Positions 8,595 to 59,358 of a DNA stretch of 59,358 nt are shown piece after piece. The translations under genes were made by a program, and so were the position numbers. The first letter of the stretch is position 1. Each line of letters starts with the position of its first letter. Source of the stretch: Marinitoga hydrogenitolerans DSM 16785 (GTDB lineage Bacteria > Thermotogota > Thermotogae > Petrotogales > Petrotogaceae); contig NZ_FQUI01000008.1 in NCBI RefSeq assembly GCF_900129175.1, positions 1-59,358 on the forward strand. Direction: 5' to 3'. The notes beneath the pieces were generated by a model. That model was not told where the DNA came from and searched no databases. It worked only from the letters and a program-made list of their open reading frames with translations.

Positions 8595-8884
8595 CTTTTT
8601 CACCCCCAAAATTTTTATTTCAATTATGCTATCGACTAAAATTTTATGAGCTTTAATTTTTTTTATATTTTATTTAACAAAAAACACTATATTAACACAA
8701 TCATTTCAATAATCTCTATAAAGCTTTTTTGAGTTTTATAGTGGCATATTCTGAAAAATTACCTAAAAAATCGTCCCTTTAATTCATACTTATCATATTA
8801 TTCACCTCCACACATTCATCAAATTTATACCTAAAAGTATCTAATCACCCCTTTCTATAAAGTATTCATATATTTTATATATTT
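8595..8884 (-). other. 290-bp leader between two lipoprotein genes, with a perfect Shine-Dalgarno and a 5-codon ORF
   Basis: No gene is seen here. On the minus strand GGAGGTGA (8809-8802) precedes ATG at 8796, which opens a frame of only five codons (MISMN) ending at 8779. A weak stem CTATAAA/TTTATAG follows near 8716-8741. This could be a leader peptide or the decayed start of a lost gene. No clean terminator after the upstream lipoprotein gene was found, so readthrough is possible. Confidence 0.35.
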
Positions 8885-11800: not shown

Positions 11801-13753
11801 TCCATCTTTGTTTATCTTAAAAATAGCATTGTTTCCAGATACATAAAAGTATTCACCATCATATAATATTTCACTATTTATTTCTTCTGATACATTTAAT
11901 TCCCAACGTTTAACTCCATTTTTATCATAACTATAAATAAAGTTCCCTATAGCAAAATATATATAGCTTTCTTCATCATTTATTACAAATGATGAAAGTG
12001 GTTGAATCAAATTAATTTCTTTATAAATTTCCCCTTTAGGTTTCGCAATTATAACCTTCCCAGAATTCCCATATTCCCCAAAAATAACTATATACCCATT
12101 TTCAATTATAAGAATAGATGACGATGGTATTATTTCATAGTTCTTTTGCCATTTTAAAATAAAATCATCTATATCATATACATATAATATACCTTCTGAA
12201 GTTATTATGTATAATTGTTTTACACCTTTATAATCTTCATTTGCTGTGAGCCCCACAACATTTCCACCAATATTGATTGTGTTTTTTAATTCAAAAATAT
12301 TTAAATCTATAATACTAATATCTCCATTAATTTCTGCAACATATAACTTATCTTGGTAAATTATGCTATTGCCTATTATGTTATCCAAATTAATAACTTT
12401 GTCAATTGTCCCATTTGTATTTAATCTATAAACACTCTCATTTGTTATAACTATTAATTTATCATTATACACAAAAATATCTTTGATATTGCTAATATCT
12501 TTTACCCATTGAACAGTATTCACTTCTTTTTTTGTTCTAAACTCTATTTCATCGCTTGATTTAATACCACCATAATTATCTTTTGCTACTATTTTTAAGA
12601 AATATTCTGTATCATCATTAAGAGATATATCATATTTGTTATTTTCAATTAAGGTTGCAATTTTTGTATAATTTTTTGACCGTGTCCCTAAATATATATC
12701 AAACTTTAATTGATCATTATCTAAATCTATACAATTCCATTCTATTTGAAAATTTTTTGGCACAATAGAATTATTTTTTGGATATACTATTTGTGGTTTT
12801 TCAGGATTTCTATTAACATCTTTAACAATAATATTCAATGTCCCACTAACATTTTCTTTTGTATCTGAAACTATTATTATTTCACCTATTTTCTTTTGAG
12901 AAACCGGATGACTTACAAAATTATAATCAGGTTTAAATATATACTTACTTCCCTGAATAATTGCACCATTATTTGTATTTATCTGATATTCGAAATAATT
13001 ATCCTCCATATCAGATACATAATTTTTTAAATCAAGGCTAAATTCTTCTCCTTCACTAACAATGAAGTCTTCTTTTGGAAAATCTATCATTGGTGGAGTA
13101 TTATCTAATGTTTTAAATGTCCATGTTTCTGATACTTCTGATGCACCAAAAGAATCGTAAGATTCAATTTTCCAAAAATATGTTGTGTCTAATTTTAACT
13201 TTTTAATTGTATATTCAGTATTTGTTAAAGCTGATGCAATTGGTGTGTTTAAAGGTGTTGATTCTGATAAATAAAGGTTATAAAAAACCTGATCTCCATC
13301 AAAATCTATACTTTTATACCATTCAAATTTTAAATCATAAGGGCTAACCACTTTGTTATTATTTTCCGGATATCTGAGTATAGATTTAATAGGCTCTGAA
13401 TTTAAATAATTAGTTTCAAAAGAAACTTCTCCTTTAGTTCTATTACCACTTATATCTATTACCTCTAAAACCCAATCATATTTTGTATTTTCTTCTAAAT
13501 TTACTTTCAAATTATTAGAGGCAAGACCTTCTGCTTTATATTTTAATTGGCCATTAGAATATAAATAAAAATTATATATCAACATCTTTTTTTCAGGATC
13601 TTTAGCTGACCAACTGAAAGCAACTCCACCTGGATTAATTTTTTCACCATTCGATGGATTCATACTTTCTATAATAGGAGGTTGATCCTTAAATATACAA
13701 CTTTGTAATACAAGTATGATCAATATAAAAAATATTATCATTATTTTCTTCAT
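8885..13753 (-). CDS. Giant surface lipoprotein: Fn3 modules, two PQQ-like propellers, C-terminal cohesin-like domain
   Basis: The product is 1622 aa from ATG 13753, which follows GGAGGGG. An in-frame ATG at 13771 lies before that ribosome-binding site. The signal peptide ends in the lipobox LQSC. In order, I read four Fn3/cadherin-like modules (to about 415), a first propeller of short PQQ-like repeats (about 415-750), one Fn3, and a second propeller (about 870-1180). Three Fn3 modules follow with the motif DPDGDSLTYDIY...YYWKIVAKDGKGG, and then a cohesin-like domain over the last 130 residues. No enzyme motif is visible. It shares Fn3 modules with the 5037-8594 product and may pair with that protein's dockerin-like segment. 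An extracellular or periplasmic structural or binding role is inferred. Confidence 0.78.
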   Translation of the reverse strand: MKKIMIIFFILIILVLQSCIFKDQPPIIESMNPSNGEKINPGGVAFSWSAKDPEKKMLIYNFYLYSNGQLKYKAEGLASNNLKVNLEENTKYDWVLEVIDISGNRTKGEVSFETNYLNSEPIKSILRYPENNNKVVSPYDLKFEWYKSIDFDGDQVFYNLYLSESTPLNTPIASALTNTEYTIKKLKLDTTYFWKIESYDSFGASEVSETWTFKTLDNTPPMIDFPKEDFIVSEGEEFSLDLKNYVSDMEDNYFEYQINTNNGAIIQGSKYIFKPDYNFVSHPVSQKKIGEIIIVSDTKENVSGTLNIIVKDVNRNPEKPQIVYPKNNSIVPKNFQIEWNCIDLDNDQLKFDIYLGTRSKNYTKIATLIENNKYDISLNDDTEYFLKIVAKDNYGGIKSSDEIEFRTKKEVNTVQWVKDISNIKDIFVYNDKLIVITNESVYRLNTNGTIDKVINLDNIIGNSIIYQDKLYVAEINGDISIIDLNIFELKNTINIGGNVVGLTANEDYKGVKQLYIITSEGILYVYDIDDFILKWQKNYEIIPSSSILIIENGYIVIFGEYGNSGKVIIAKPKGEIYKEINLIQPLSSFVINDEESYIYFAIGNFIYSYDKNGVKRWELNVSEEINSEILYDGEYFYVSGNNAIFKINKDGNLIDTYSSNNIFSKTMLISKDKNIIAVNNIGLIKDNNEINIADFENIKTYALLNDGLLYFASEAKLYALSIADEETFNNNWYVFGKNINKNRTSYVKNNTPPKKPELIYPQNQSVEIPTKIKLMWQCEDMEDDELTYGIYLGEGDNLELVATTQSTSYEVNLENDKKYYWKVIVGDGEFSTESDLFSFTTIPPPAEEKFKVKVEGATIYSPAISEDNIIYFSTSSGKIYAYTSDGKELWSFDTNGFIKASVVLNPLNQVIVGNENGELYIINSNGMLSNKIILDGSISIPVSLGKNGEIFVITDIGNIYKLSFFGEQMWKKELSGNPTTNIVVDKDNNIYFGMDNHLYSLDDLGNIRFKKSFNNIISTDLSIDEYGNVYFAIENKVYSINGFGDVEFEKDIGEKVIGTIFIDNNNAIIFETLEGNLYRYYYLGKSLEKIQLNEKPYTLILMDGIKYITTKDKFIVYNGELRWYDEYRKVRYSPNIDNNGVIIFGTTEGFLYGIYGDTNKLRNSAWPIYLGDKRHTGNINGENIIVPTNRPPLKPYNPYPADNSDISVSTITLTWESSDPDGDNVYYNLYLGDNINQQKVASDISQNSYKITNLIPGTYYWYVEAYDNYGNISKSELWSFTVTESAAENNPPLKPVLLEPVNNANNVSNNAVLKWQCSDPDGDSLTYDIYINSEPMLSTPVETNYNGTTYSIVLDANKTYYWKIVAKDGKGGETSSDIYSFTTSEKVNNPPNKPILIEPLNNSTNIEPDVTLSWSATDPDGDSLIYDLYLSKTQDLIVPYKTNLTASSFLVSNLELGTTYYWKVVAKDGKGGENSSDVYKFTVTESIGPLTPKLYFKDTIIPSGSQGELIIHGQKLENVLAFDIEVSYDNTKLNVSESDIQFIGELTGRSLIININNGKIKITTLSFSPFNINDSDIIKINFTAIGNSGSTELQFTNNTKIVDSSGNELEVDISDIGIITIQ

Positions 13754-13858
13754 AAAAACCCCTCCTAACATTTTGACTAATATATTATTAAATTTGTTCC
13801 TTAGATATTTATATACACTTCGTATTATTTTTCTATATTTTCTTATTATTTACCTAAC

Positions 13859-42479: not shown

Positions 42480-44969
42480 TCACTCCGGAATAATTATATG
42501 GAATTTTGTACCTTTGTTGTATTTACTTTCAACATTAATTGTTCCCCCTACTCTTTCCACTTCTTTTTTTACAATACTTAATCCAAGACCACGCCCTGAT
42601 ATTTCAGTAGCTTCATTTTTCGTAGAAATTAATTCCATAAAAATAAGATTTAATAGTTCAACTTCACTATTATATTTTATATTTTTCCTATTTGCTATAC
42701 TTTTCAATTTTTCCATATTAATACCTTCACCATCATCTTCAATTATAATATGAATATTATTATTTTCTTTGTACAATATTGTTTTTATATTACCCTTTTC
42801 CTCTTTATTCTTCTCTATCCTTATTTCGGGAGGTTCTATTCCATGATCAATTGCATTTCTATAGATATTTATCAATGATTTTATTAAATAGAAATACTTT
42901 TCAGGTTCTATTAATATTTCATCTTTAATTATTAACTCTGGAGCTTTTATGATTTTTCCCGATCTCACAGCCAATTCTTTAATATAGAAAATATACGGTT
43001 TAATCAAATTGGATAAATCCTTATACCTTAACTTTCTTATCTCTTTTATAATCTCATCATCTTCTTTGAAATATTTTTTTAATTTTGTTTCCAACTCTAA
43101 TATTTTATCTTTTGGAATATTTAACACATTTTCTTCTATCTCATGGCCTAATTCATCGCGTATATCTTTAATTTCTATATCAAATACATCCTTTACTTCC
43201 TCGATATTTATTTCTTTATTTTTTAATATATCATTTTCCACTTCATGTAATTTCTTTGTTAGTTTATTCAAATGAAATTGCGAGAAAATTCCCTTAAAAT
43301 TGTGAATTTCGTTATAATAATTTTTAATATTTCCTTTGTTTTGAATAAATTTTATCATTTTTTTAAACTCTTTTATATTATACATAAAAGCATCATAATT
43401 TCTTATTATTGAAACTATTCTCATCAAATTTTCTCTTTCTTCTTCTATTTTTAGTTTTAAATTTTTTTCTGTTGTAATATCCGTTAATTTCACCATAATC
43501 AAATTTTCATATTTTACATATTTAAATTCTATTTTATAATATCCATAATTTATTTTTATTTCTGAAGGTAAAAAGGATAAATAAACTTCCTTTTTAAACT
43601 CATCACTCTCTTCGAAGAAATCCTTTAAAACTCTCTTAATAAAATCTTTTTCGTCATCATTAAAAACCAAATCTACAAAATTTAATCCCTCTATATTTTT
43701 ACCAAAAATTCCGATACACTCATTGCTGTATTCCTTACCTATAATATAATCTTTGTTAAATGTCAAAAAACCTTCTCCAGCATTATCCAACAACAATTTT
43801 ATATCCTTAGTTTTTTTATTTATTTCTTTTTCTAAATCTTTATTCCAATTTTCCAATATTTTACTTTTCACAGATAATTCAAGATTCAATTCTTTAATGT
43901 TTTTCAATATTAAGAGTATCATGGAATTAATTAATATAAAAATTGACCATTGAATCCATGCTCTTTCCCACTTTATAATTCTTAAGTCTCCCATTATTTC
44001 ATATATTGCAAATACAGAAACTATAATAATTGAAATAGAAAAAATATGAGCTTTGATGTCTTTCAATTTGAAGCCTAAATATAGGTTATATAGCATAATG
44101 ATAATATCGATCAGCATCCCAAAATATAACGGAAGAACATATGCTACATAATAATTATACTCAAAACCTTTCGTTATTTGTATGGCAGATATAAAAATAA
44201 AATATATTATATGAAAAAAAACCAACCATTTTATTATCGCCTTTGTTGAATAATCAAAAATATTATAAAAAAATCCCATTATCCCTATTGGTGCAAGATA
44301 TTTTCCTATATCCATCATATATGCCCAAAAAATATTATTCGAATAAAAATACTTAAATGTTTGTGTTTGCCCTGATATAAACAGACCTATACCTAATGAA
44401 AAAATTCCCAAAAAAATTAATGATCTTCTTAATTCAGAATTTCTTCGGAAAATTATAAAATATATATATATAATAAGAGACAGCACTAATATGAAAAAAC
44501 TAAATATTGATAATAATATTTTATCCAATTCAACAAAAATTTGATGTGTTAATAGTTCTAACTCATCTCCTAACAAAAATTCTCCAAAAAATCCGACATC
44601 TCGTCGTTTTGAAGATACTTTTATTACTAAATATTTATTTTGAAAATCTTTCGGTATTTTAAATATACTTTTAGGGCTAAAAAAACTTCTTGCAAAAGAA
44701 TCATATATTAATTTGTCACCAACAACCATTCTGGAATTGTCAAATATTCCCGTAAAATATATTGCTGGATTATCTAATTTTACATCAGGCAATTTATATC
44801 TTAAATATAGCATTTCATTTTTATTTTCTATTGGAATACCGGGAGTTTCATATTTATGCCATGCTGTTTCATCTTCCCATCTATACTCCCATCCATTATA
44901 TAATTTTACATATGAAAAAGCTGATATATATAATATTATAAAAAATAATATAAGCATTTTATTTCTCAT
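42480..44969 (-). CDS. Membrane-bound CheA-like kinase with HPt domain
   Basis: The 829-aa product has a signal-like segment, an extracytoplasmic beta domain (about 20-140) resembling 7TMR-DISM sensors, seven or so membrane helices (150-355), and a coiled coil near 360-395. A PAS-like domain (about 390-500) follows, then an HPt-type helix with IHNFKG (H556). A CheA-like ATPase region ends the protein (NIYRNAIDHGIEPPEIR near 701-717, DDGEGIN, GRGLGLSIV). No ordinary HisKA H-box is seen, so phosphorylation probably runs through the HPt histidine as in CheA. The partner CheY-like gene follows at once. The sensed signal is unknown. Confidence 0.85.
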   Translation of the reverse strand: MRNKMLILFFIILYISAFSYVKLYNGWEYRWEDETAWHKYETPGIPIENKNEMLYLRYKLPDVKLDNPAIYFTGIFDNSRMVVGDKLIYDSFARSFFSPKSIFKIPKDFQNKYLVIKVSSKRRDVGFFGEFLLGDELELLTHQIFVELDKILLSIFSFFILVLSLIIYIYFIIFRRNSELRRSLIFLGIFSLGIGLFISGQTQTFKYFYSNNIFWAYMMDIGKYLAPIGIMGFFYNIFDYSTKAIIKWLVFFHIIYFIFISAIQITKGFEYNYYVAYVLPLYFGMLIDIIIMLYNLYLGFKLKDIKAHIFSISIIIVSVFAIYEIMGDLRIIKWERAWIQWSIFILINSMILLILKNIKELNLELSVKSKILENWNKDLEKEINKKTKDIKLLLDNAGEGFLTFNKDYIIGKEYSNECIGIFGKNIEGLNFVDLVFNDDEKDFIKRVLKDFFEESDEFKKEVYLSFLPSEIKINYGYYKIEFKYVKYENLIMVKLTDITTEKNLKLKIEEERENLMRIVSIIRNYDAFMYNIKEFKKMIKFIQNKGNIKNYYNEIHNFKGIFSQFHLNKLTKKLHEVENDILKNKEINIEEVKDVFDIEIKDIRDELGHEIEENVLNIPKDKILELETKLKKYFKEDDEIIKEIRKLRYKDLSNLIKPYIFYIKELAVRSGKIIKAPELIIKDEILIEPEKYFYLIKSLINIYRNAIDHGIEPPEIRIEKNKEEKGNIKTILYKENNNIHIIIEDDGEGINMEKLKSIANRKNIKYNSEVELLNLIFMELISTKNEATEISGRGLGLSIVKKEVERVGGTINVESKYNKGTKFHIIIPE

Positions 44970-45026
44970 AGTAGCATCACCTCAAATATAATTATAACAT
45001 ATAGATGTAATTTTTTTTACTTTTTA

Positions 45027-45035
45027 TGGTATAAT
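45027..45035 (+). promoter_or_regulatory. Extended -10 promoter of the first envelope operon
   Basis: TGGTATAAT within TTTTTATGGTATAATT. The same 16 bases recur at 49596-49611. It leaves a 5' leader of about 115 bases before the lipoprotein gene. Confidence 0.65.
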
Positions 45036-45155
45036 TGTAATGAATATAAAAGTTTAATTGTTATTAACTTTAGAACAAAAATGCTATTATATTCGTCTAA
45101 ATATTTTAATGAAAATATATTGAAAAAAATTATTATAAAAAGTTGAGGTGGGATT

Positions 45156-48100
45156 ATGAAGAAAATTATTATTATTGGTTTGGTAGTTATTCTGCTTTTA
45201 TCATTATCTTCATGTGTTAAAAGTATAAAGGTTAAAGCAAAACCGAAAATAGGAGTTCCTGTAGCAGCTACAAGCATTACATTAAATGACTTTATCAAAG
45301 ATGAGGATATAACAAAAATATTATCAGGTGCTACAGTTGGTCCTAATAATGCTGGAGTAAAAACTATAAAATATGCTACAGGATTAAATGTTGATATGAG
45401 TCAATCATTTGAAAAAATTGATGCCTTTAGTACATCAATAACACAGAAAATTTCTGTACCGGAAATAGGGGATATTTCTCCTGTTGAAATCAACGTTCCA
45501 ACTATACCTGGTATTGATTCTATTCCATTTACTGTTCCTGATTTAAGTACGAACCCTGTGTCTCCTGATATTGGAATTAGCGAAATTAACGTAACTGATG
45601 CAGGTATAAATCTACCAGATATAAGTTCTCTGTTCATTCCTGTTGTTGGGGGAGTTGGTACTTCTGCATCCACATCAACTACTTTAGACTCAAATGGAAC
45701 GTTCACAAAATTATCTTTTTCTTCTGGGAGTTTAACGTTAAATGTCACTAATAACGATAATTCTGCAACTGTTGAAGTTGACGGAATTATAGAAAACAAT
45801 GATAATACAAAAATTTATGCTAGCCCAATTTCATTAAGCTCTGGAAATGCTGGAACATTGAATTTTGAATTAATCAATAATAATATTTCAGATGGAGCAA
45901 CTATAACTTTAAGAGCAACTATAACCGGTGGAACTGGTGCCGGAGGTAATCTTGATATTGGTAGTTTAGACTTTGCTTCAGGAACAAAAATCAAAGCTGC
46001 AGAAGGAATTTCTTATTCAATTACAAAAAATATTTCTCAAACTATTAATGCTAACATGGGGACAACATCTTTTTCTTCAGTAACGATTGATGGGACATTT
46101 AATATTAACATTGAATTCCCTATCGAATGGGAAAATGTTAATAAAGAATTTGACGCAACTATACTATACTTATATAACAATAATACAAAAAATATTGTTT
46201 TAATTTCTGATTCATTTAATAGTTCAAAGGAGCTTTCATTCACAAACATAGAATTACCATATGATGCAAATGGAATTTTTGAATTCACAATTGATTCTAC
46301 TTTTACAAGTGATAATCAAACAACAATAGACTTTACAAAATCTCCAACTATTACAATAATTCCAGAAATTAATGTAAAAAACATAAAAGGTGTCGAAATT
46401 AATAACACTCAAAGTATTAATATTCCTGATAATATAGAAGCTGTAAAATTAAACTCAGGAAAATTTGTATTAAACATAAGCGATACTATTGTAAGTTCTA
46501 TTGTTGCTAATTTAACCTATTTTGATGGAATTACAAATATTACTAAAACCTTTGACTTAAATAATAGTTCTGCTGAACTTAATATGAACGGAATAGTTTT
46601 AACAGGTGGTAATACAACAGATGCTACTGTTTCTATAAATTCAATATCGCTTGACTTCGGCAATAATGGTTTAAGTACAACGTCATTAACTGCAAATGTT
46701 AATCTGTCAAATTTAACATTATCAGAAGCAACTATTACATCAAATATTACACAAGATATAAATCTTCCTTCAAATATTAAAAAAGTAATATTTGGTGATG
46801 GGGATATTGAAATTACTCTTGATAATGCAAAATTCACAAGCATTAGTGGAACTCTAACCTATGATACAACTAATACTTCTATGAATGTTTCATCAGAAGG
46901 CACTGCTTTAATTGATTTAGCAAACTTAGAATTAGGAGAACCTTCTGCAACAATATCTATTGACAAAATAGGAATATCATCAAGTGGTGGCATAGCATTA
47001 GGAACAACATTAACAGCAAATATTGAATTAAAAAATCCAAAAATACGCTATGCTAAAATTCAAACAGATGAAAATTTAAATATTAACAATACTCAAACAA
47101 TTGAATTCCCTTCTGAAGCAAAAGACTTATTAAATTCTATAACCTTTGTAGGTACTTCAAATATTAATGTTGAATGGAATAATGAATTGCCTGTTGGTAT
47201 AAACGTCTCTGTAAAAATTCCAGAATTTAGTATTGCTGATACTTTTACAATGAAAGATAACAATTCTCATACAATTTCATTAACAAATAAAACAATCGAT
47301 TTAGATTCACCGTTAAACTTTGATTTTGAAGCATCACCTGCAAATTACGATGATACTAATAATATTGTCACTATAAACATATCTGATCAAGCTAACTATT
47401 TAACTTTGGGTAGTACTTATACATTATCAGCAACTATTAATCTTGATTATGAACTTGATGCATCTATAAAACCTATAAGTAAGGATATTATACCTGAATC
47501 TGATCCTTTGAACTTTGAAATACCTATTTCTGAAGATACAACATTAACCTTAAATGATATTGATATCGAAGGTTTTAATGCAAAAGTTACAGGTACTATA
47601 CCTGATAGTTTAGTGAATGTAAACAATTATATTACTTTAATTGCAACCTATACTGTTAATAATACTGTAGAATCCACAACAACAGATATAATATTTAATA
47701 ATACCTCCATAAACAAAGATATTACAGATTTCTTAAAAACCGTTCTTAAAGGATCAAATGTTTATATGTCAATAAAATCAAATGATATATCATTATCTTT
47801 AGATGATTTAAGCAATTTTGTATTTGATTTCAATATAGAGCTTACAATACCTCTTGCATTTACATCCACAAAAGATATTAATTTAGTAACAATAAACGGA
47901 GAAAAAGACATTTTAGGAAGAAAACCGGGAGAAAATAACTCTGAAATACCTATAGACCCTTTAATAGGAGACAATGGAAAATTGATTTTGCATCTCAATT
48001 ATAATAATACAACAGGATTAACACCAGGATTAAAACTAATTGGTAAAAATGAAAACAATCAAGAATTATATGAAAAAATCATACAATTAAAATCAGGAGA

Positions 48101-48296
48101 AAATAGCATATCCATTGAATTTACAAAAACAGATATTGATAAAATTTTAAATAATAATCCTTATTATATTGATTTTATAGGTTATATTCCCGCAAACAAA
48201 TCACAGCAATTTATGAATAGTGGAACTTTAGATATAAATGCCTGGGTAGAAGTTCAAACAGATGTAAATGCTGATTTATTAAAAGGTGGTGAGTAA
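45156..48296 (+). CDS. Large repetitive beta-rich lipoprotein, unrecognised family
   Basis: The 1046-aa product has a lipoprotein signal peptide with lipobox LSSC at about 20. The mature part is rich in Asn, Thr, Ser, Ile and predicted beta strands. Related blocks of roughly 130 residues recur, for example SNITQDINLPSNIKKVIFG and NNTQSINIPDNIEAVKLNSG. Cysteine is absent after the lipobox as far as I can see. I do not recognise the family and see no catalytic motif. The next gene, 1 base after its stop, encodes a predicted outer-membrane barrel, so the pair may form one envelope complex. GAGGTGGG precedes the ATG. Confidence 0.8.
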   Translation: MKKIIIIGLVVILLLSLSSCVKSIKVKAKPKIGVPVAATSITLNDFIKDEDITKILSGATVGPNNAGVKTIKYATGLNVDMSQSFEKIDAFSTSITQKISVPEIGDISPVEINVPTIPGIDSIPFTVPDLSTNPVSPDIGISEINVTDAGINLPDISSLFIPVVGGVGTSASTSTTLDSNGTFTKLSFSSGSLTLNVTNNDNSATVEVDGIIENNDNTKIYASPISLSSGNAGTLNFELINNNISDGATITLRATITGGTGAGGNLDIGSLDFASGTKIKAAEGISYSITKNISQTINANMGTTSFSSVTIDGTFNINIEFPIEWENVNKEFDATILYLYNNNTKNIVLISDSFNSSKELSFTNIELPYDANGIFEFTIDSTFTSDNQTTIDFTKSPTITIIPEINVKNIKGVEINNTQSINIPDNIEAVKLNSGKFVLNISDTIVSSIVANLTYFDGITNITKTFDLNNSSAELNMNGIVLTGGNTTDATVSINSISLDFGNNGLSTTSLTANVNLSNLTLSEATITSNITQDINLPSNIKKVIFGDGDIEITLDNAKFTSISGTLTYDTTNTSMNVSSEGTALIDLANLELGEPSATISIDKIGISSSGGIALGTTLTANIELKNPKIRYAKIQTDENLNINNTQTIEFPSEAKDLLNSITFVGTSNINVEWNNELPVGINVSVKIPEFSIADTFTMKDNNSHTISLTNKTIDLDSPLNFDFEASPANYDDTNNIVTINISDQANYLTLGSTYTLSATINLDYELDASIKPISKDIIPESDPLNFEIPISEDTTLTLNDIDIEGFNAKVTGTIPDSLVNVNNYITLIATYTVNNTVESTTTDIIFNNTSINKDITDFLKTVLKGSNVYMSIKSNDISLSLDDLSNFVFDFNIELTIPLAFTSTKDINLVTINGEKDILGRKPGENNSEIPIDPLIGDNGKLILHLNYNNTTGLTPGLKLIGKNENNQELYEKIIQLKSGENSISIEFTKTDIDKILNNNPYYIDFIGYIPANKSQQFMNSGTLDINAWVEVQTDVNADLLKGGE

Positions 48297-48297
48297 T

Positions 48298-49554
48298 ATG
48301 AAAAAATTACTTATTTTTACAATTATTATTTTCAGTGTATTATCCTTCTCAAATCCCAATATTAATAAACCATGGAATTATTCTTTTAATCCAGCATTAG
48401 TTGATTATGGTACGAGAAACCTTATAGATATTGGGGTATCTGGTGACGTTAATTTTATTCAGCCATTTATTAATTTTGGGGATTTGTTCAAGGATGAAAT
48501 TATTATTGATTTTAATGATATTTATGATAATTTGGGTGAAGAACCATTACCAATAAATTTAAATGCGGATGTTTCAGCTTTTGGGAAGATTCATTTATGG
48601 TTTTTATCTTATGCAAAAATCGTTGATTTGAAAACAAATACTAAAGTTGCTTTGCCAAATGATTTAATGAAATTATTATCATATGGTAATGTTGAAAATG
48701 GAGTAATTGTTGATTTAAATGGAGAGGGTTTTTTAAACTCAAACATTATATTTACTGATACAAATTATTTATCCTTTGTTAGCAAAAATTCTATTTTTGG
48801 TTTATCATTTTCCAATTTTTTGCCTATTGCTATTATAAGGAGCAATGTTGATTTTAATCAAACTTCTAATATTGAAAATGCGACTTTAAAGATAAATTAT
48901 AATTTAAATGGTGATGTTTACAGTTCATTAAAATCTTTAAATACATTGATTTTAAATGATTATGATGACTATGATAACCATGATTCAGAAATTGATGAAG
49001 ATATCTTAAATTCCCTCGGAGAAAACGCAGGATTAAAGATGAGTTTTGGTTATATAAATAAATCTAATAGATGGGGAATATCTATAAATGATATCGTTAT
49101 AAAAAATGCAGAAATGAAATATACATATACTTTAAGTGCCACTGGTAATATATTAGTTGACAATATGAACATTGAAACTGACCAAGGAACTCCAACATTA
49201 GAAATGTTGGATGAATCATCATCAAGAGTTTTTCCTGAAGTTCCTTTAGATTTACCTATGAATATTTCTGCTTTTTATACCTTTAATTTCCTTTTTGATA
49301 TAACTCCACATTTGCAATATTATTTTGGTAAAGGCTTAGATTGGGGAATTAATTTTGATGGTAACTTATTATTTATCCCATTTTGGTTAGATATAAGCAA
49401 CAAAATTGATTATTGGACTTTAAATACAGGTTTTGGAATTAATATACATATTATTGATATAAATGCTTCTGTTGAAAGTGCTTCACAAGAATTTGGCAAC
49501 ATTTTAAATTTTAAAAATTTAGCCTTCAAATTAAATATCGGTATAGGAATATAA
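48298..49554 (+). CDS. Predicted outer-membrane beta-barrel protein
   Basis: The product is 418 aa from ATG 48298, just after the previous stop; GTG codons at 48286 and 48289 overlap the AAGGTGGTGAG ribosome-binding site. A Sec signal peptide (KKLLIFTIIIFSVLSFS) is followed by NPNINKPWNYSFNPALVDYG, an opening seen in barrel proteins of the FadL/TraF/PorV kind. Alternating hydrophobic strands run to the end (LAFKLNIGIGI). The specific family was not identified. It is in an operon with the lipoprotein gene upstream and is followed by a terminator. Confidence 0.7.
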   Translation: MKKLLIFTIIIFSVLSFSNPNINKPWNYSFNPALVDYGTRNLIDIGVSGDVNFIQPFINFGDLFKDEIIIDFNDIYDNLGEEPLPINLNADVSAFGKIHLWFLSYAKIVDLKTNTKVALPNDLMKLLSYGNVENGVIVDLNGEGFLNSNIIFTDTNYLSFVSKNSIFGLSFSNFLPIAIIRSNVDFNQTSNIENATLKINYNLNGDVYSSLKSLNTLILNDYDDYDNHDSEIDEDILNSLGENAGLKMSFGYINKSNRWGISINDIVIKNAEMKYTYTLSATGNILVDNMNIETDQGTPTLEMLDESSSRVFPEVPLDLPMNISAFYTFNFLFDITPHLQYYFGKGLDWGINFDGNLLFIPFWLDISNKIDYWTLNTGFGINIHIIDINASVESASQEFGNILNFKNLAFKLNIGIGI

Positions 49555-49564
49555 GAATATATAA

Positions 49565-49600
49565 AAAACACCTTTCAGTTTTTACTGAAAGGTGTTTTTT
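49565..49600 (+). terminator. Intrinsic terminator of the first envelope operon
   Basis: AAACACCTTTCAGT pairs with ACTGAAAGGTGTTT across TTTT and is followed by TTTT. The T run merges directly with the next promoter. Confidence 0.9.
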
Positions 49601-49601
49601 A

Positions 49602-49610
49602 TGGTATAAT
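49602..49610 (+). promoter_or_regulatory. Extended -10 promoter of the second envelope operon
   Basis: TGGTATAAT, in a 16-base stretch identical to the one at 45021. It abuts the preceding terminator and leaves a leader of about 90 bases. Confidence 0.65.
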
Positions 49611-49705
49611 TAAATATGTTCTTAATTTATTAATAATACTTGAACAAAAAAACTTTCAAAAAGTCCAAAGGTATATATGTTTAAAAAATTACAGGGGGTG
49701 TTTTT

Positions 49706-52700
49706 ATGGGAAGGTTTAAAAAGATTTTTTCTTTATTTATGATTTTAATGATTTTTATTGTATCTTTTTCCGCCGTTAAAAGTGTTTCTATACGTACTGT
49801 AAACTTTGATTCTTGGGATTTTAATGTCTCTACAGATTTTGCAGTAATAACACCTGGAATTATATTAAATGGCAATTTATTTACTGCAATTGTAAGAAAT
49901 GACACTAACCCCGCTACTATCTTTGCAGATATTACTTTATCAGTTTTAAGTGGTAAATGGGAAGGGGATTATTTAATCATTAGATTTGGTCCTATTGAAC
50001 TCAATTCTAATGAAACTTTTATTTTGAAAAATACAGAGATTTTAGATTACTTAGATATGGTAACTTTAAAGGAAAATAATATGACACATATTTCCAATTT
50101 AGAAGATACAACAGATTTTTTAAATTTAGAATTGGCTGAAGGAAAATATGAATTAAAAATAGAAATATTCGAAGACGACAATAATGGAAATGAAGTCTCC
50201 AAAGGAGTTAAAAGTTCAAGCCTCGCTATAATAAATCCAGACCCCATTGAATTTATAAAACTTCCTGAAGGAGATACTTTATACCCAACCATTAAATGGA
50301 GCTTAAGTAGAGTTCCATGGTATTCAAAAACAACAAGTGAGTTGGAAATTGAAGAAAACGGTCAAATAGTATTTTCAAGGATCTTTAATCATAACGAACC
50401 TGATAAAAATAACCTTGACTTAGATATAAAAGGCTATCCTACCGGAAATAATATTGAAGATGGTATTTTTACATATAACATCACCGGTGAAGAAAATGAT
50501 CCTATTTTTAAACGTGGAAAGACCTACACTTTTAGAGTTATTATGAAGGATTCTGGAGGAAATGTGATCGCTAAAACATTAGATGAAAATATCACATTTG
50601 ATTTATCTTATCCGGATATGATTTATCCAACTGGAGAAATTGAAGAAATTAATCCTATTTTTGAATGGAATTTCGATTATGATTCCGAAGTTGCATATTA
50701 TTTACTACAAATTGATGGTTTCGGTAATTTAAAAGTATATGGCTCTCAATCTTATCAATTAGAAAATTCTTTAGACTGGGGCAAATTCTATAAATGGAAA
50801 GTTATACCTTATTATGAAGATAATACTCCTTTTTTTGAACCTTCTGAAATTGAATGGATGGAATTCTCTACACCACAAAATAATCCTCCAGAAGTAGAAA
50901 TAATAAATCCTGTTGAAGGAGATTATCTTTTATATGGTGAAACATATACATTTGAAGGAAACGCTGTAGATAACGATCCAGATGATGAAATAACTGAAAC
51001 ATGGTGGGAAATTGAAGGAAAAAAGTATTCTGGATTATCAATAGAGTTCACACCAAAAAGACGCTACATTGATTCTCCTTTAAAGATCCTATTTTTTGCT
51101 AAAGATAAATTTAACAATACTGCTCAAACAGAAGTAAATGTTTTTGTTAAACAACCAAAATTATATATTTTAAAGCCTTCTGATAATTCCAAATTTATTG
51201 TTGGCGAAAATGTTGAATTTGAAGCATTTTCTCAGGATTTAGATGAAGATATTATTTGGTATGATGGCGAAAATGAAATAGGCAGCGGAGAACATATTGA
51301 ATATTTATTTGAAGAATCAGGAGAGCATATAATAAATGTAGTTTCTGGTGATCTTTCTGATTCTATTACTATATTTATTGAAACTGTCCCTGTTTTATCA
51401 GCTGAAAACACAGAATATGAAATATATGTTGGTGATTCATTAACATTAACAGTTGAATATGAAAATCTGGAATCACAAAATATACAATGGATACTTAATG
51501 GTAGAACTATTGGAAATGAAGATACTTTAGAATATACATTTAATGAACCTGGAAATTATACAATTATCGCAAAATATGAAACATTATCTGTTACTTTCAA
51601 TATTTTAGTAAAAAACTTTCCTGAAATACGTATTGTTTCTCCTTTAAATAATGCAAAGATAAAAGCTGGAGAAGAAATTTCACTTAAAGCTGAGTCAAAA
51701 TATGCAGATGAAGATATTATTTGGTATATTGATGGAAATGAAATTGGAAAAGGCGAAGAGTTAAAATACACATTCAATGTAGAAGCTGAAGGCCCTCACA
51801 CATTAATGGTCAAATCAGGAATAGCTTCTCATGAAATATCTATTGAAATATATGTTGAAAGATTTGTTAAAATTATTTCTCCAAAAGAAAAGTTGCTTGT
51901 ATTAGATATTAATCAAACATATTTATTCAAGGCCGAAAAACAAAATATTGAAGAAGATATTCAATGGTTTGTGAACGATGAAAATATCGATAGCGGAAGT
52001 TCCTTTGAATATACTTTTACAAAAGGTGGTAAATATATAATTAAAGCTGAAGCTAATGGTTTTTTTGATGAGATTACTGTAAATGTTGTCGGAGAAAAAT
52101 ACTTAATTATAACTTCTCCACAAGATGGTGCTTTATTTGAAATAGGACAACCTATTAAATTTATAGCTGATTCTAAAAATTTAATAGAAGATATAATGTG
52201 GTATGCTAATGAAGATGAAATTGGAAAAGGCAATTCTTTAGAATATTCATTTAACGAACCAGGAGATTATGAAATTAAGGCCGTAAGCGAAGGTATAGAA
52301 CATTCAATAATTATAAAAATTCTTCCACCTGAAACGCTTAATATCCTTTCTCCTGAGGATGGTTCTAAATTCTTTATTGGTCAAGAAATTGAATTTGAAG
52401 CTTCTGGGGAAAACTTAAGAGGAGATATACAATGGTTTGCTAATGATGTTTTAATTGGTAATGGCAAAACATTTACATATGTTTTCAATGCTCCAGGAGA
52501 TTATGAAATAAAAGCAAAAAGTCCAACAAAAGAAACTACTATTAAAATTAAAATATTGGAATCACAAACGTTACAAATTATTTCTCCAAATGATGGAAAT
52601 ATATATAAATTAGGTAAAATTGTAAAATTAAAAGCAAACACCAGATATGAAACGTCTATCGAATGGTATGCTAATGACACTTATTTAGGTGAAGGTAAAG

Positions 52701-55700
52701 AATTAGAATTTATACCTGAAAATTATGGTAATTTTGAAATTAAAGCTGTCGCTGATAACTTAGAAAAACTTGTTAAAATTTATGTATATAAACCTATAAG
52801 CGATTTAGTTATAGATGGAATAAATAATGATGCTATTTTATTTGATGATGAAACTATTGAAGCTGAAGCATTATATGAATTTGATGAAGCTATTGGTATT
52901 AAAGAAAAAGGATGGATGCTTGATGGCGAATCCATTTCAAATGATAATAAAATATCCATATCTAACCTCAAACCTGGTAATCATATTTTAATGTTTAAAA
53001 TAATGGATAATATGAACAACTATGCTGAAATTAAAATAAGCTTTAAAATAATAGAAAGATTAGAAATAAAAATTATTTCTCCAGATGATGGTAGTCATTT
53101 TAATTTAAATGATTCAATTAGGTTAAAAATGGATTTATTAAAAGGAAATTGGAATCAAATTAGAGAAATAAATTGGTATTTTAACAATACTCTCGTTGCT
53201 AACGGAAAAGATGCCTTAGTTTCAAACGTTGGTGAAGGTGACATAATTGTTAAAGTTGAAGTTCAAGATATACTTGACGAAACATATACAAAGGAAATAA
53301 GCATAAACATATCTGATAAACCTGTTCTTGAAATCTTAATGCCAAAAAATAATTCAACATTCAAATTTGGTGAGGAAATAAAAGTTGTAGGTAATGTTTA
53401 TTTAACAGCATTAGAGGGAAAGCAAAATCTTGATACTAATGATATTATTTGGTATCTTGATGGAACTGAAATAGGTAATGGTGGTGTTATGTTCCTTGAA
53501 AACTTAGAACCGGGAGAGCACATAATACAAGCAGAATATAAAGATATAATTTCAGAAATAAATATAAAAATATTAGACCCTATTAAAGCAAAAATATTAG
53601 ATTCTGAAGAAATACCCTTTAACCCAGGTGAAGAACTAAAAATTAAAGGAGAAGGTGATGGCGTTCTGTTATGGTATTTAAACGGTGTTGAAATCGGCAA
53701 AGGCAGTATTTTAATTTTAGATACAAAAAATATAACTTCACAGTCAAAATTAACGTTAAAAGCTGTCTTCAATGACATAGAAAGTGAAGATTCTATATCA
53801 TTATTACCTAACACAAAACCTATTATAAGTTGGGAAGTCCCCGAAAACGAAGAAAAATTTGTTTCAAATGCAAACATCCCTATAGAGGTTAAGGTTGAAG
53901 ATGCAGAAGATGGATTGCTAACATATTCTGTATATATTGATGGTGTAAAAATTGGTGAAAATATTAATTCTATATTTGCAGGTACGTTAAATCCAGGAGT
54001 TCATAGCTTAAAAATTTTTGCAAAAGATAAACTGGGAGTTGAAATTTCTGAAACAAGAAAAATTATTATAAATCAAAAGCCTAATCCAACAATATTATCG
54101 CCACAAAAAGGTCAGGAAATAACTGCTGGAATGTCACTTATATTAGAAGCTATCGTTCAAGATGATGATCCAATAGAAAACGATAAAATCATCTGGATGG
54201 TTGATGGTGAAAAGGTTGGGAATGGATTAAAATTCGAGTTTACGGAAGTTTTATCAACTGGTGAGCATTTCATCGACTTATACGTTGAAGATCAAATGGG
54301 AGAATATGTACAATTATCAACTGATATTGTTATTGTTGAAAAACCTAATATAAGAATAATTCAACCTATTAATGATTCGATAATAAATATAGGTAGTCCT
54401 CTTATACTTCAAGCAGAAGCATTTAAAGGACCTAATCTTCCATTCGAAGATAATATGATTAACTGGAAGTTAGACGGAACAATAATTGGCACTGGAAAAA
54501 GAATTGAATTAAATACAAATTCATTAACTTCCGGAGAACATGCTATAACTGCACAAGTAGAAAATGTTTCTGATTCTGTTAGAATAATTATAAACACACA
54601 ACCTATTGTTGATATAAGTCAACCATTAGATGGCAGTATATTAAGCACAAAAGAATTGATAATCTTTAAATCATCAATTATTGATGCTGAAAACAATATA
54701 AAACCAGAAAATATAAAATGGTTTATTAATGGTGAAGAAAAAGGTTCAGGAGTTTCATTAAATGCTGGTACATTAAGTGCTGGAGATTATAGAATAACAG
54801 TCAAAGCTATTGATGATAATGGATTAACCGGTGAGAAATCTATTTCTATAAAAGTTATTTCTCCTTTAATCGCAAATATATCCTCACCAGAAAATCAAGG
54901 AGTCTTTTCACAAACCGCTATTATTAATCTCACAGCAAATATTTCAGGCGGGCTGGCACCTTATCAGATAAATTGGACTATAAAACAGCCAAATACGCAA
55001 GATAAAATTTTAAATGGTAATAATTTAAATTTAAATGCTTTTGATTTAAAACCTGGAAATGCATTAATTCTCCTCGAAATAAAAGACGCACTAGGAAATA
55101 TAGTCACAAAAACAAAAGAAATTAAAATTTTTGAAAAAACAAAAGTACTCATTGTAAAGCCTGAAAATGGCCATATATATGTAAAAGGACAGGAAAATAT
55201 AAATGCTGTTGCAAAATTATTTAATGCGGAAGGAAAAAATGCTAAAATCACATGGTTCCTTAACGATAAAAAAGTAGGAGATGGTTCTGTAATAAATATT
55301 AATACAAATAATATAGAAAATGGAAATTATGTATTAAAAGTTAATGTAAAGACTAAAAATGAAGATATTTCTAATTCAGTAAACATTATTATAAGAGAAA
55401 AGCTAAAAATAAAAATATTATCAACATATGATACAGTAAAAAGCGGTGAAGAAATAACTTTAAAAGCCTTTGCTTTAGATCCACTTGATGGTGACATAGA
55501 AAATATTGAATGGAGTTCTAATTTACAGGGAATACTAGGAACAGGAAAAGAATTAAAAGTTAAATTAATCCCTGGAAAACATCTAATAACAGCAATTGCA
55601 AAAAATTCAAAAGGAAAAATATCAAAAGATACAATAAATATTTTGAGCTTAGGAAACATAAAATTATCAATAGAAAGCCCATCGAATGGAGATATTTTCA

Positions 55701-56413
55701 CAGGAGCTGTAGAAATACCATTTAAAGCTTCTGCCTTAGATGCTGATGGTTCTGAAATAACTCCGGAAAATATTATTTGGATTTCAAATATTGATGGACA
55801 AATAGGAAATGGTTTAGAAATAAATAAAAAATTAAGCGCCGGAAAACATGAAATAACTTTGACTGTTATGAGTAAATTCAATGGTTCTGTAACGAAAAAG
55901 ATTTCTATTCAGGTTTTAAAAGAATCTAAAATTGAACAAAATCTTGTAATCGATATTGAAGATGGACTTTTAGTAATACAAAATCAGCCTATTGAACTGA
56001 AAGCATATAAAGTTGGTATTGACGGTGACATAATTTGGAATTCTGATATTGATGGAGAATTAGGTACTGGTGATGCAATAGAAGCTATTCTTTCAACACC
56101 TGGAATACATAAAATAACTGCTAGTGTTGGTAATATTTCAAAATCTGTAAAAATAAAAGTAATTGAATACCAGGAAAAAAGAAATGTTGTTGCAGTTGTT
56201 ATTAGTTTAAAAGGAAATGCTGAAACAAAATACAAAGATCAAGTAAATGTGTTGAAAATTCTATCCCCTATTTATAATAAAGATATTTTAGTAATTTATA
56301 ATAATACTGAAATAAAATTAGCTTTTAAAGATGGTACACAAAAAACATATACAATAAATACAAATGAAGGGGTTAAATTTGAAAACAAACGAGAAATTAC
56401 ATTTCATGAGTGA
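49706..56413 (+). CDS. Giant secreted protein: about 21 Ig-like modules and a C-terminal FecR-like domain
   Basis: The 2235-aa product has a Sec signal peptide (about 1-25) and no lipobox. After a unique region (to about 390) I count about 21 modules of 75-90 residues. Their consensus is roughly ISPxDGxxFxxGxxIxFxA, then IxWYxNxxxIGxG, then a closing strand after PGxYxIxA, of the bacterial Ig-like/PKD type. The last 70 residues (VVAVVISLKGNAETKYKD, IKLAFKDGTQ) look like a FecR domain. If each module spans about 4 nm, the array could reach some 80 nm. No catalytic motif is seen. It shares an operon with the barrel gene 13 bases downstream. GGGGGTG precedes the ATG. Confidence 0.82.
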   Translation: MGRFKKIFSLFMILMIFIVSFSAVKSVSIRTVNFDSWDFNVSTDFAVITPGIILNGNLFTAIVRNDTNPATIFADITLSVLSGKWEGDYLIIRFGPIELNSNETFILKNTEILDYLDMVTLKENNMTHISNLEDTTDFLNLELAEGKYELKIEIFEDDNNGNEVSKGVKSSSLAIINPDPIEFIKLPEGDTLYPTIKWSLSRVPWYSKTTSELEIEENGQIVFSRIFNHNEPDKNNLDLDIKGYPTGNNIEDGIFTYNITGEENDPIFKRGKTYTFRVIMKDSGGNVIAKTLDENITFDLSYPDMIYPTGEIEEINPIFEWNFDYDSEVAYYLLQIDGFGNLKVYGSQSYQLENSLDWGKFYKWKVIPYYEDNTPFFEPSEIEWMEFSTPQNNPPEVEIINPVEGDYLLYGETYTFEGNAVDNDPDDEITETWWEIEGKKYSGLSIEFTPKRRYIDSPLKILFFAKDKFNNTAQTEVNVFVKQPKLYILKPSDNSKFIVGENVEFEAFSQDLDEDIIWYDGENEIGSGEHIEYLFEESGEHIINVVSGDLSDSITIFIETVPVLSAENTEYEIYVGDSLTLTVEYENLESQNIQWILNGRTIGNEDTLEYTFNEPGNYTIIAKYETLSVTFNILVKNFPEIRIVSPLNNAKIKAGEEISLKAESKYADEDIIWYIDGNEIGKGEELKYTFNVEAEGPHTLMVKSGIASHEISIEIYVERFVKIISPKEKLLVLDINQTYLFKAEKQNIEEDIQWFVNDENIDSGSSFEYTFTKGGKYIIKAEANGFFDEITVNVVGEKYLIITSPQDGALFEIGQPIKFIADSKNLIEDIMWYANEDEIGKGNSLEYSFNEPGDYEIKAVSEGIEHSIIIKILPPETLNILSPEDGSKFFIGQEIEFEASGENLRGDIQWFANDVLIGNGKTFTYVFNAPGDYEIKAKSPTKETTIKIKILESQTLQIISPNDGNIYKLGKIVKLKANTRYETSIEWYANDTYLGEGKELEFIPENYGNFEIKAVADNLEKLVKIYVYKPISDLVIDGINNDAILFDDETIEAEALYEFDEAIGIKEKGWMLDGESISNDNKISISNLKPGNHILMFKIMDNMNNYAEIKISFKIIERLEIKIISPDDGSHFNLNDSIRLKMDLLKGNWNQIREINWYFNNTLVANGKDALVSNVGEGDIIVKVEVQDILDETYTKEISINISDKPVLEILMPKNNSTFKFGEEIKVVGNVYLTALEGKQNLDTNDIIWYLDGTEIGNGGVMFLENLEPGEHIIQAEYKDIISEINIKILDPIKAKILDSEEIPFNPGEELKIKGEGDGVLLWYLNGVEIGKGSILILDTKNITSQSKLTLKAVFNDIESEDSISLLPNTKPIISWEVPENEEKFVSNANIPIEVKVEDAEDGLLTYSVYIDGVKIGENINSIFAGTLNPGVHSLKIFAKDKLGVEISETRKIIINQKPNPTILSPQKGQEITAGMSLILEAIVQDDDPIENDKIIWMVDGEKVGNGLKFEFTEVLSTGEHFIDLYVEDQMGEYVQLSTDIVIVEKPNIRIIQPINDSIINIGSPLILQAEAFKGPNLPFEDNMINWKLDGTIIGTGKRIELNTNSLTSGEHAITAQVENVSDSVRIIINTQPIVDISQPLDGSILSTKELIIFKSSIIDAENNIKPENIKWFINGEEKGSGVSLNAGTLSAGDYRITVKAIDDNGLTGEKSISIKVISPLIANISSPENQGVFSQTAIINLTANISGGLAPYQINWTIKQPNTQDKILNGNNLNLNAFDLKPGNALILLEIKDALGNIVTKTKEIKIFEKTKVLIVKPENGHIYVKGQENINAVAKLFNAEGKNAKITWFLNDKKVGDGSVININTNNIENGNYVLKVNVKTKNEDISNSVNIIIREKLKIKILSTYDTVKSGEEITLKAFALDPLDGDIENIEWSSNLQGILGTGKELKVKLIPGKHLITAIAKNSKGKISKDTINILSLGNIKLSIESPSNGDIFTGAVEIPFKASALDADGSEITPENIIWISNIDGQIGNGLEINKKLSAGKHEITLTVMSKFNGSVTKKISIQVLKESKIEQNLVIDIEDGLLVIQNQPIELKAYKVGIDGDIIWNSDIDGELGTGDAIEAILSTPGIHKITASVGNISKSVKIKVIEYQEKRNVVAVVISLKGNAETKYKDQVNVLKILSPIYNKDILVIYNNTEIKLAFKDGTQKTYTINTNEGVKFENKREITFHE

Positions 56414-56426
56414 GGGGGGATAGAAA

Positions 56427-58994
56427 ATGAAAAACAAAATCTTAATAATATCATTTATATTCATATTTTCCATAATTACACTATCACAAGAAGTAATCTT
56501 TGAAAAAAGTGTGTATGAAGGGCAAAATGTAAAAATAGCAGTAAATTTCAAACCTGGACAAACATTTAGTGAAGCAAAATTATTTTTCAAAGTTTATGAT
56601 GAAAGGAATTTTAGTATATTAAAACTAAGAGTATTCCAAAGTTCTGCAGAGACTGTCATTCCGGCAGCTCTGCTTCATACAACAAAATATAGTTTTTACG
56701 TTCAATTAATTGATGAAAAAGGCTTAGTACAAAGATTCCCAGAAGGTTTTGGAAATTATTATCAGTTTGAAGTATTACCTGATACGTTAAGCCCAAAAAT
56801 TAAATTTATTTCTCCTTTAAATGGACAAAAATTTTTTGATAATGAGTTAATTCCTATTGCTATTTTATTAGATGAAAAAGAAACTGGTATAGATCCAAAA
56901 AGTATTATATTTAAAATTAATGACAAGGTTATAGAAAATTATAATTTAGATGGAAATTTATTAACTTACAAACTTACAAATGTTCCATTTGGTGAATATT
57001 ATATCTTTATTCAAGTTTCTGATAAAAAAGGAAATATTTCTAACCCAGAAAAAATAAAAGTAATTATGAAAGAAAAAGGACCTCCGTTAGTTGAATTCAC
57101 ATTCAATAAAAATTACGAATTAGCTTCTGAATTCAAATTTGAAAGCAAAATATCAACTTCAAATGAACTGATAGAAAAAAATGTTATTGATTCATTAGAT
57201 ATGAACTTCTCCCAAAATGCTGACTTAGATTCCAATTTAAGATTTTGGATATTTAATTTTGGTTTTAGAATTTTCTTGTCTCAAGAAAGTACTGATTTTG
57301 TACAATTGTTTAAAGATTTCACTAACCAACTCAATTATGATTTAAAAGATAGCATTAGATTATTAAACCCCATGAATATGGATGATTATACAATTTATGA
57401 AAAGCCAAGAAATATTGATGTAACAAATAATTTAAACTTCTATTTAGATCTAGCTTTTTTAAAATATAAATTTTTTGATAATCAAATTAATTTTAATCCT
57501 TTAACTGTAAATAACTATAATGTAAGAGGTCATTATGCAAAATTAGATTTATACCTTGCTAATGCTGAAATTGCTGTAGGAAATAGTGATGTAGGCATTT
57601 TTGAAACATCTTATCCCAGGTATTTTGCAGGTTTAAAAACGGGGATAAATTTATTTGAACTATTAAAAGCTAATGTTGATTTTTCTATAATATCCGATTA
57701 TCAGGGAACTCAAGAAAATAGATACATTAAAACATTATTCAATATACCTGATACTATTACTCCAAAACAAAATATTTTAATAGGAGCCAATACTTCTTTA
57801 AATCTCTGGGTTGCTAAAATAAATGCTAATCTTGGTATAGATGTATATATTGATGATTCCTCTAATATTATAAGCATAACAGAAATGGCTTCTAGTATAG
57901 CAGATATTGCAGGAGATCCAACAATAAAAGATACCGTAGAAAATTATGTAACCCAAATTGAAGATGTATTCCCAAAAACATTTGATTATTTCCCTATATC
58001 TAATGGTATAGTTGCAGCAGCAACCGATAAATATCTTTTAGGAACTGCTTTAAGTTTAAATGGAGAAATACCTATATTAAATTTAAATCTATACTATTTA
58101 AAAGCGGATAAAAACTATAAATCTCTGGGTGTTTCTGCACCTTCAAATGTTATGAAATATGGTATTACTTTTAAAAAGAAACTATGGATATTAGATTTAA
58201 AAGGCAATTATGAATTAAAGAAAGACAATACTTCGTTAATTGGTTTAGACGAAATATTAGGTTTGGCTCTTGGAAATAGCGACGTTTCAGAATTGATAAA
58301 TAATATTAATCCTTTAAATGATCTATTAGGTAAGGAGAGTGTTCCTGCATCTTCAACAACTGATGATATAAGAAATATTACTGAAAAATATAAACTTAAC
58401 GCAAGTTTGAAATTAGGTTTTTTAGGAACAGTTGGAGGTGAATATTCTGTTGAGCATCAAACAAATAATGCTGAATTTTTGATAAACGAAAGCGCTACAA
58501 CAACTATTACAAATGACGATAAAAAAGATAAAACGATTACTGCTTATTCCGCTTACTTAAAAAATATAGGATTTAAAACGAATAATTTTTCATTAAAATT
58601 ATCATTCGATGCCGGGTTAAAAAATATCATTGACAAAATAAATACTGAAAATAATGCTATTCTATTAACTTATGGCGTTAAAACAAATATAACATTAGGA
58701 AAAGTCGGACTAAATGGTGCATATAAACAAAAACAAGAAGAAGATATATTAACAACTGAATTATCAGGAGGTTTTAAAACAAAACTATTCCAGATAACTT
58801 ATGCCAATATACGAAAAACAACAAAAGATTCCCCTGATGATATTCTTTCAGACACAAATAAAATTGATGCAAAAATAAATTTAAATATTGATTTTACTTC
58901 AATACAATTTGGTGCTCAACTACAATTACCTGATATATATTCTGATCAAGAAGGAAAAATCAATGCTTATGCAAAATTTGCTATAACCTTTTAA
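56427..58994 (+). CDS. Predicted outer-membrane beta-barrel protein with N-terminal Ig-like domains
   Basis: The 855-aa product has a signal peptide (about 1-20), then two beta-sandwich regions. The second (about 125-215) starts LSPKIKFISPLNGQKFFDNE, as in the Ig modules of its neighbour. From about 230 the protein consists of amphipathic strands and ends YAKFAITF, with the terminal phenylalanine expected for barrel insertion by BamA. The shared Ig-type module suggests that it anchors or contacts the giant upstream protein. It overlaps nothing; GAGGGGGGA precedes the ATG and a strong terminator follows. Confidence 0.78.
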   Translation: MKNKILIISFIFIFSIITLSQEVIFEKSVYEGQNVKIAVNFKPGQTFSEAKLFFKVYDERNFSILKLRVFQSSAETVIPAALLHTTKYSFYVQLIDEKGLVQRFPEGFGNYYQFEVLPDTLSPKIKFISPLNGQKFFDNELIPIAILLDEKETGIDPKSIIFKINDKVIENYNLDGNLLTYKLTNVPFGEYYIFIQVSDKKGNISNPEKIKVIMKEKGPPLVEFTFNKNYELASEFKFESKISTSNELIEKNVIDSLDMNFSQNADLDSNLRFWIFNFGFRIFLSQESTDFVQLFKDFTNQLNYDLKDSIRLLNPMNMDDYTIYEKPRNIDVTNNLNFYLDLAFLKYKFFDNQINFNPLTVNNYNVRGHYAKLDLYLANAEIAVGNSDVGIFETSYPRYFAGLKTGINLFELLKANVDFSIISDYQGTQENRYIKTLFNIPDTITPKQNILIGANTSLNLWVAKINANLGIDVYIDDSSNIISITEMASSIADIAGDPTIKDTVENYVTQIEDVFPKTFDYFPISNGIVAAATDKYLLGTALSLNGEIPILNLNLYYLKADKNYKSLGVSAPSNVMKYGITFKKKLWILDLKGNYELKKDNTSLIGLDEILGLALGNSDVSELINNINPLNDLLGKESVPASSTTDDIRNITEKYKLNASLKLGFLGTVGGEYSVEHQTNNAEFLINESATTTITNDDKKDKTITAYSAYLKNIGFKTNNFSLKLSFDAGLKNIIDKINTENNAILLTYGVKTNITLGKVGLNGAYKQKQEEDILTTELSGGFKTKLFQITYANIRKTTKDSPDDILSDTNKIDAKINLNIDFTSIQFGAQLQLPDIYSDQEGKINAYAKFAITF

Positions 58995-59000
58995 ATAGTA

Positions 59001-59040
59001 AAATTCCCGTCTATATATTAGTATAGACGGGAATTTCTTA
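59001..59040 (+). terminator. Intrinsic terminator of the second envelope operon
   Basis: AAATTCCCGTCTATA pairs with TATAGACGGGAATTT across a 6-nt loop, followed by CTTATT. The stem is its strong feature; the T run is imperfect. Confidence 0.85.
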
Positions 59041-59183: not shown

Positions 59184-59239
59184 TCTTGATTTCATAGTGT
59201 TTTTGTGGTATAATATACAGTGACATTATGAAATCAAGA
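59184..59239 (+). promoter_or_regulatory. Transposase promoter within a 13-bp inverted repeat
   Basis: TCTTGATTTCATA (59184-59196) is the exact reverse complement of TATGAAATCAAGA (59227-59239); pairing extends about 5 more bases with G-U pairs. TTGATT (59186-59191) and extended TGGTATAAT (59206-59214), 17 bp apart, make a good promoter. Its own transcript would start near 59221 and hold only the right arm. A read-through transcript would hold both arms and mask the region just before the GAGGTG ribosome-binding site. Confidence 0.7.
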
Positions 59240-59249
59240 GGTGATTTTT

Positions 59250-59358
59250 ATGTTTTTAAGAATTGTTAAAAATAATAAAGGAACAGAATATTTGAGAATT
59301 GTTGAAAATTATAGAGAGAACGGTAAAAACAAACAAAGGGTAATAGCAAATCTTGGTC
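59250..59358 (+). CDS. IS1634-like (IS4 group) transposase, N-terminal fragment cut by window edge
   Basis: The frame is open from ATG 59250 to the window end, 36 codons. It starts MFLRIVKNNKGTEYLRIVE and continues YRENGKNKQRVIANLG. This is the usual N-terminus of IS1634-family DDE transposases. GAGGTG stands 6 bases upstream. The left end of the element must lie between the terminator at 59040 and this start; I could not recognise its terminal repeat, since the right end is not in view. Confidence 0.85.
   Translation, partial: MFLRIVKNNKGTEYLRIVENYRENGKNKQRVIANLG

Follow-up and report, generated by a model that had tools for sequence, protein, structure and literature searches.

In Marinitoga hydrogenitolerans DSM 16785, two adjacent genes encode a giant protein with exactly 21 tandem immunoglobulin (Ig)-like modules and a probable outer-membrane β-barrel protein that carries one module of the same family, and the number and order of the giant's modules are kept between two genera. 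The genes lie in the window, by which we mean the whole stretch of 59,358 nucleotides that was analyzed (contig NZ_FQUI01000008.1, contig C8 of the 2.31-Mb genome). No published description of the pair was found in the open-access literature. We tentatively regard it as a two-gene accessory envelope module, an Ig-rod analogue of the Omp-alpha/Omp-beta spacer-barrel pair. The features on which the argument turns are the following:

49706-56413, plus strand: giant Ig-array protein, 2235 amino acids (aa), with a Sec-type signal peptide and with neither a lipobox nor a cysteine
49796-50893, plus strand: N-terminal region of the giant, aa 31-396, of unknown family
50894-56164, plus strand: 21 tandem Ig-like modules, aa 397-2153
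56183-56410, plus strand: C-terminal FecR-like half-domain of the giant, aa 2160-2235
56427-58994, plus strand: candidate partner outer-membrane barrel, 855 aa, from the list of open reading frames (ORFs) and a strand score
56802-57065, plus strand: single Ig module of the giant's family in the partner, aa 126-213
57078-58991, plus strand: putative β-barrel of the partner, aa 218-855

The Ig array and its conservation between genera

A profile hidden Markov model (HMM) built from the giant's own modules, cut at the conserved tryptophan region, divided residues 397-2153 into exactly 21 modules with individual E values of 3e-13 to 5e-27, which confirms the count of about 21 given in a preliminary description of this DNA. 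Pfam reported the repeated Ig-like families BiPBP_C (E=1e-57) and Big_7 (E=1e-55). AlphaFold2 modeled aa 1635-2235 as a string of β-sandwich domains with a mean predicted local distance difference test (pLDDT) score of 84 and a predicted template modeling (pTM) score of 0.38, scores that lend confidence to the individual domains but not to how they are oriented relative to each other. Tandem Ig folds of this kind define a bacterial Ig-like array, and the giant, all-β in its modeled part and by the module HMM, is not a coiled-coil stalk. Sequence searches of the PDB returned no full-length relative, matches to GFP being taken as chance, and a Pfam search gave no match for the N-terminal region. 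Other large Thermotogota proteins, at four loci, resemble that region weakly; they are lipoproteins or other proteins with neither a FecR-like tip nor a neighboring barrel and were not accepted as relatives.

The module HMM also counted 21 modules in a further genome, G039. In a second genus of the family (∼35% identity to the window), represented by two closely similar draft genomes, modules 1 to 15 lie on one contig and modules 15 to 21 on another, and the total is again 21. Because 20 of the 22 second-genus modules best match the window module of the same number, the two exceptions being near ties, module number and order have stayed the same since the pair's two lineages diverged. Identity to the second genus is 35-41% in the N-terminal regions, 49% in Ig1, and 39-42% in Ig19 to Ig21, and it falls mostly to 25-38% in the middle modules. 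Both ends of the giant are therefore somewhat better conserved than most of the middle, a sequence pattern that would fit a rod of fixed length with two end contacts. End conservation and the fixed module number together constitute the best evidence for a tether and had no part in the preliminary argument.

The same array invites comparison with adhesins. Foldseek searches with the model of the giant returned Ig arrays in general, together with Ig structures from the PDB, and the top match was GhpA, the grappling-hook protein of Aureispira. GhpA is likewise a long chain of Ig-like modules, but it is a surface hook of another phylum, and the two proteins resemble each other only in fold (11-16% identity). 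A surface stalk or adhesin, in which the barrel would hold the FecR-like C terminus in place at the outer membrane while the Ig array pointed outward for attachment or cell-cell contact, could draw on these grappling-hook arrays, on the many adhesion proteins among the matches, and on the patchy, accessory distribution described below. However, the Ig similarity is generic, with 556 hits at E≤0.001. The giant has also kept the number and order of its modules, whereas adhesin arrays often vary, and an export system specific to it was not seen. We consider such an adhesin unlikely, although it is the rival that we take most seriously.

The partner barrel and the FecR-like tip

The giant and barrel genes are 13 bases apart. 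The single Ig module of the 855-aa protein was recognized by the module HMM (E=7e-8) and is modeled with a pLDDT of ∼80. The protein ends in ...AYAKFAITF, where F holds position 1 and positions 3, 5, 7, and 9 are hydrophobic, in agreement with the published rule for porin C termini (PMC3387000), and it has by this rule the C terminus of an outer-membrane β-barrel. Its barrel part contains ∼26 amphipathic strand candidates according to a score that is unspecific and fires on the Ig array too. From these sequence features, the 855-aa protein is probably an outer-membrane barrel; of the barrel sharing the giant's module that was proposed earlier, the module and the porin-type end hold, the barrel fold itself being one that we infer.

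The joint presence and absence of the two genes, and their spacing, would also suit a channel by which the giant is secreted or assembled and afterwards released or displayed, following a two-partner logic. Since no secretion-channel or POTRA family was matched in Pfam or NCBIfam, and since the shared Ig module suggests instead a structural complex of giant and barrel, this is improbable. Still less support can be given to an outer-membrane complex that takes up polysaccharide or protein and uses the Ig array as an arm to capture substrate. A large barrel candidate, an accessory protein, and a patchy distribution might bring it to mind, but domain searches found neither carbohydrate-binding nor TonB-dependent features; we regard it as quite improbable.

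The giant's tip (∼65 residues) aligned with Thermotogota FecR domains in hhalign (P=2.9e-5; probability of 74%, and of 67% for the tip alone). The alignment spans the first half of the FecR domain only, without the GVRGT core, and Pfam FecR (PF04773) matched neither the whole giant nor, in three homologues, the tip by itself, even with E values up to 10 allowed. The tip is thus probably a FecR-like half-domain rather than a member of FecR, which retains the FecR-like end of the preliminary description as a profile-profile similarity.

Thermotogota do have true FecR proteins: PF04773 was hit in 31 of 103 genomes, among them all the Marinitoga genomes that were searched. A separate protein of M. 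hydrogenitolerans (L122:4148-6232) joins three parts in one chain: Ig-like sequence at the N terminus, a FecR domain, and finally a probable barrel. In other Thermotogota, too, a FecR domain stands directly ahead of a probable barrel in one chain. The M. hydrogenitolerans protein resembles the pair in that extracytoplasmic Ig-like and FecR regions adjoin a probable barrel; it differs in being a single chain with a full-length FecR domain and no Ig array. By analogy with this arrangement in the same genome, FecR domain first and probable barrel next in a single chain, we propose that the giant's tip lies near the outer membrane and that the barrel is a likelier docking site for it than peptidoglycan. 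The earlier suggestion that the tip binds the wall is accordingly not retained, no wall-binding domain having been found.

The fusion protein is encoded within an operon (L122:329-7491, contig C6) for a CHASE2-cyclase, an HD-GYP protein, a membrane protein, the FecR-barrel protein, and a GAF-HD-GYP protein, and the same CHASE2/HD-GYP/FecR-barrel arrangement is found in L123, from another family of the phylum. FecR acts in transcriptional signaling, and this operon could favor the view that the FecR-like tip and the barrel form a signaling receptor, that is, an envelope sensor. Yet sigma factor, transmembrane segment, and cyclase are absent beside the pair, the tip has no second half of the FecR domain, and the upstream histidine kinase also occurs in genomes without the pair, all of which makes a sensor very improbable.

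Distribution and possible role of the pair

Among the 103 Thermotogota genomes, the barrel is present in 5, belonging to 2 of 38 genera, and close relatives of the giant are found in the same five genomes; six further hits were weak and to parts of the array. The carriers are 3 of the 7 Marinitoga genomes and the two second-genus drafts; the other 98 genomes, 4 Marinitoga among them, lack the pair. SLH, the domain that marks the known toga anchor Omp-alpha, is found in 99 of the 103 genomes and in all 38 genera. The search beyond Thermotogota consisted of plasmids, where the barrel had no relatives, and of a genome contig scan that detects close relatives only and gave none outside Marinitoga. 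With 5 of 103 genomes for the pair against 99 of 103 for SLH, the pair is accessory, and a universal toga-spanning role is excluded. The general wall-to-toga tether of the preliminary description is thereby not supported, the comparison across relatives that it had called for showing no conservation across togate genera; what survives of it is a spacer-like rod with a probable barrel, to which the conserved module number and order and an ompA-ompB-like gene order lend support.

Our working hypothesis is that the 855-aa protein is inserted in the outer membrane, where the FecR-like tip and the last Ig modules of the giant would dock onto its periplasmic Ig domain. From there, the Ig array would extend inward through the periplasm as a fixed-length rod, and the conserved N-terminal region would make a second contact, distal from the barrel. 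Since the fused FecR-barrel protein suggests an outer-membrane position for a FecR-like tip, the giant would run inward from the barrel, an orientation that would agree with that of Omp-alpha. At ∼4 nm per Ig module, a textbook estimate, the fully extended array would measure ∼80 nm. The pair would then be a second, optional spacer or scaffold rather than the basic toga tether.

Omp-alpha and Omp-beta (OmpA1/OmpB) of Thermotoga, the published spacer model (PMC9388160), are similarly encoded by a spacer gene followed by a barrel gene (PMC3387000) and are proposed to form a long rod between the layers under the toga. The present pair differs in its Ig array, in its confinement to 2 genera, in the absence of a Pfam SLH match from both giant and barrel protein, and in its possible length, roughly double the predicted 45 nm of Omp-alpha (PMC9388160). 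The SlpA/OmpM connectors between outer membrane and peptidoglycan also combine a barrel with a periplasmic rod, but SlpA is one chain with SLH and a coiled coil, whereas the pair comprises two chains with Ig modules and no wall-binding domain.

Several points weigh against the accessory-spacer hypothesis. AlphaFold2 gave the 855-aa protein, with four homologues, a mean pLDDT of only 36. The second-genus drafts are fragmented and hold no single complete copy of the giant, and the FecR-like tip is just 27% identical to that of the second genus. Domain searches found no SLH, LysM, OmpA-C, SPOR, or AMIN domain and no inner-membrane anchor in the pair. Finally, the giant may be transferred to the cell surface instead of staying in the periplasm.

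To our knowledge, little is known beyond Omp-alpha/Omp-beta of how the toga is held at a variable distance from the cell. A more specific version of the spacer hypothesis, which we find rather unlikely, is that the giant is a periplasmic Ig ruler of fixed length: docked by its FecR-like tip to its own barrel, it would set how far the toga stands from the cell body in part of this family, as an SLH-independent alternative to coiled-coil spacers. If the accessory rod-barrel pair of fixed length is real, its presence in 3 of 7 Marinitoga genomes and its absence from close relatives would permit envelope architecture to be compared directly with and without it.

Gene order and promoter elements around the pair

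45156-49554, plus strand: neighboring operon for a 1046-aa lipoprotein and a 422-aa barrel candidate (barrel2), context outside the accessory pair
49561-49602, no strand assigned: intrinsic terminator-like hairpin with a 19-bp stem, between the two operons
49596-49611, plus strand: extended -10 promoter-like element upstream of the giant, its 16 bases identical to 45021-45036
59001-59036, plus strand: terminator-like hairpin closing the giant-barrel operon

The lipoprotein and barrel2 are conserved in all 7 Marinitoga genomes and much of the family; neither had a significant Pfam or NCBIfam match, and both are undescribed as far as searched. The repeated 16-mer, which contains the consensus extended -10 TGnTATAAT, also precedes the lipoprotein gene. 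Since it occurs three times in the genome and its core seven times in the window, it is weak evidence of co-regulation; shared control of both operons is possible, and we considered it without claiming it. The preliminary description had a second lipoprotein-barrel pair under the same promoter sequence: the neighboring pair exists and the 16 bases are identical, but the motif recurs and the giant has no lipobox.

Giant and barrel genes adjoin each other in the window, G039, and M. lauensis (G040), and also in the second genus, where a single contig covers the junction. The window has the order kinase, lipoprotein, barrel2, giant, barrel; G039 and M. lauensis share the order kinase, giant, barrel, lipoprotein, barrel2. 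Comparison of L084 and L085 with window positions 42480-58994 shows the two operons swapped within the same neighborhood among Marinitoga species. In the M. lauensis LG1 assembly (L086, L087, L009), frameshifts that are probably sequencing errors break the giant, the barrel, and their neighbors. Elsewhere in the window, two large lipoproteins on the minus strand (8885-13771 and 5037-8609) are unrelated to the Ig modules by the module HMM.

In G043, the locus has no pair, and barrel2, the closest to that of the window (86%), is followed directly by a NUDIX gene. At the end of the window, a transposase-like ORF with its own extended -10 begins (59190-59358) and the contig breaks; in M. hydrogenitolerans, the NUDIX gene stands at the start of contig C42, a position that would fit a contig break at the transposase-like sequence.
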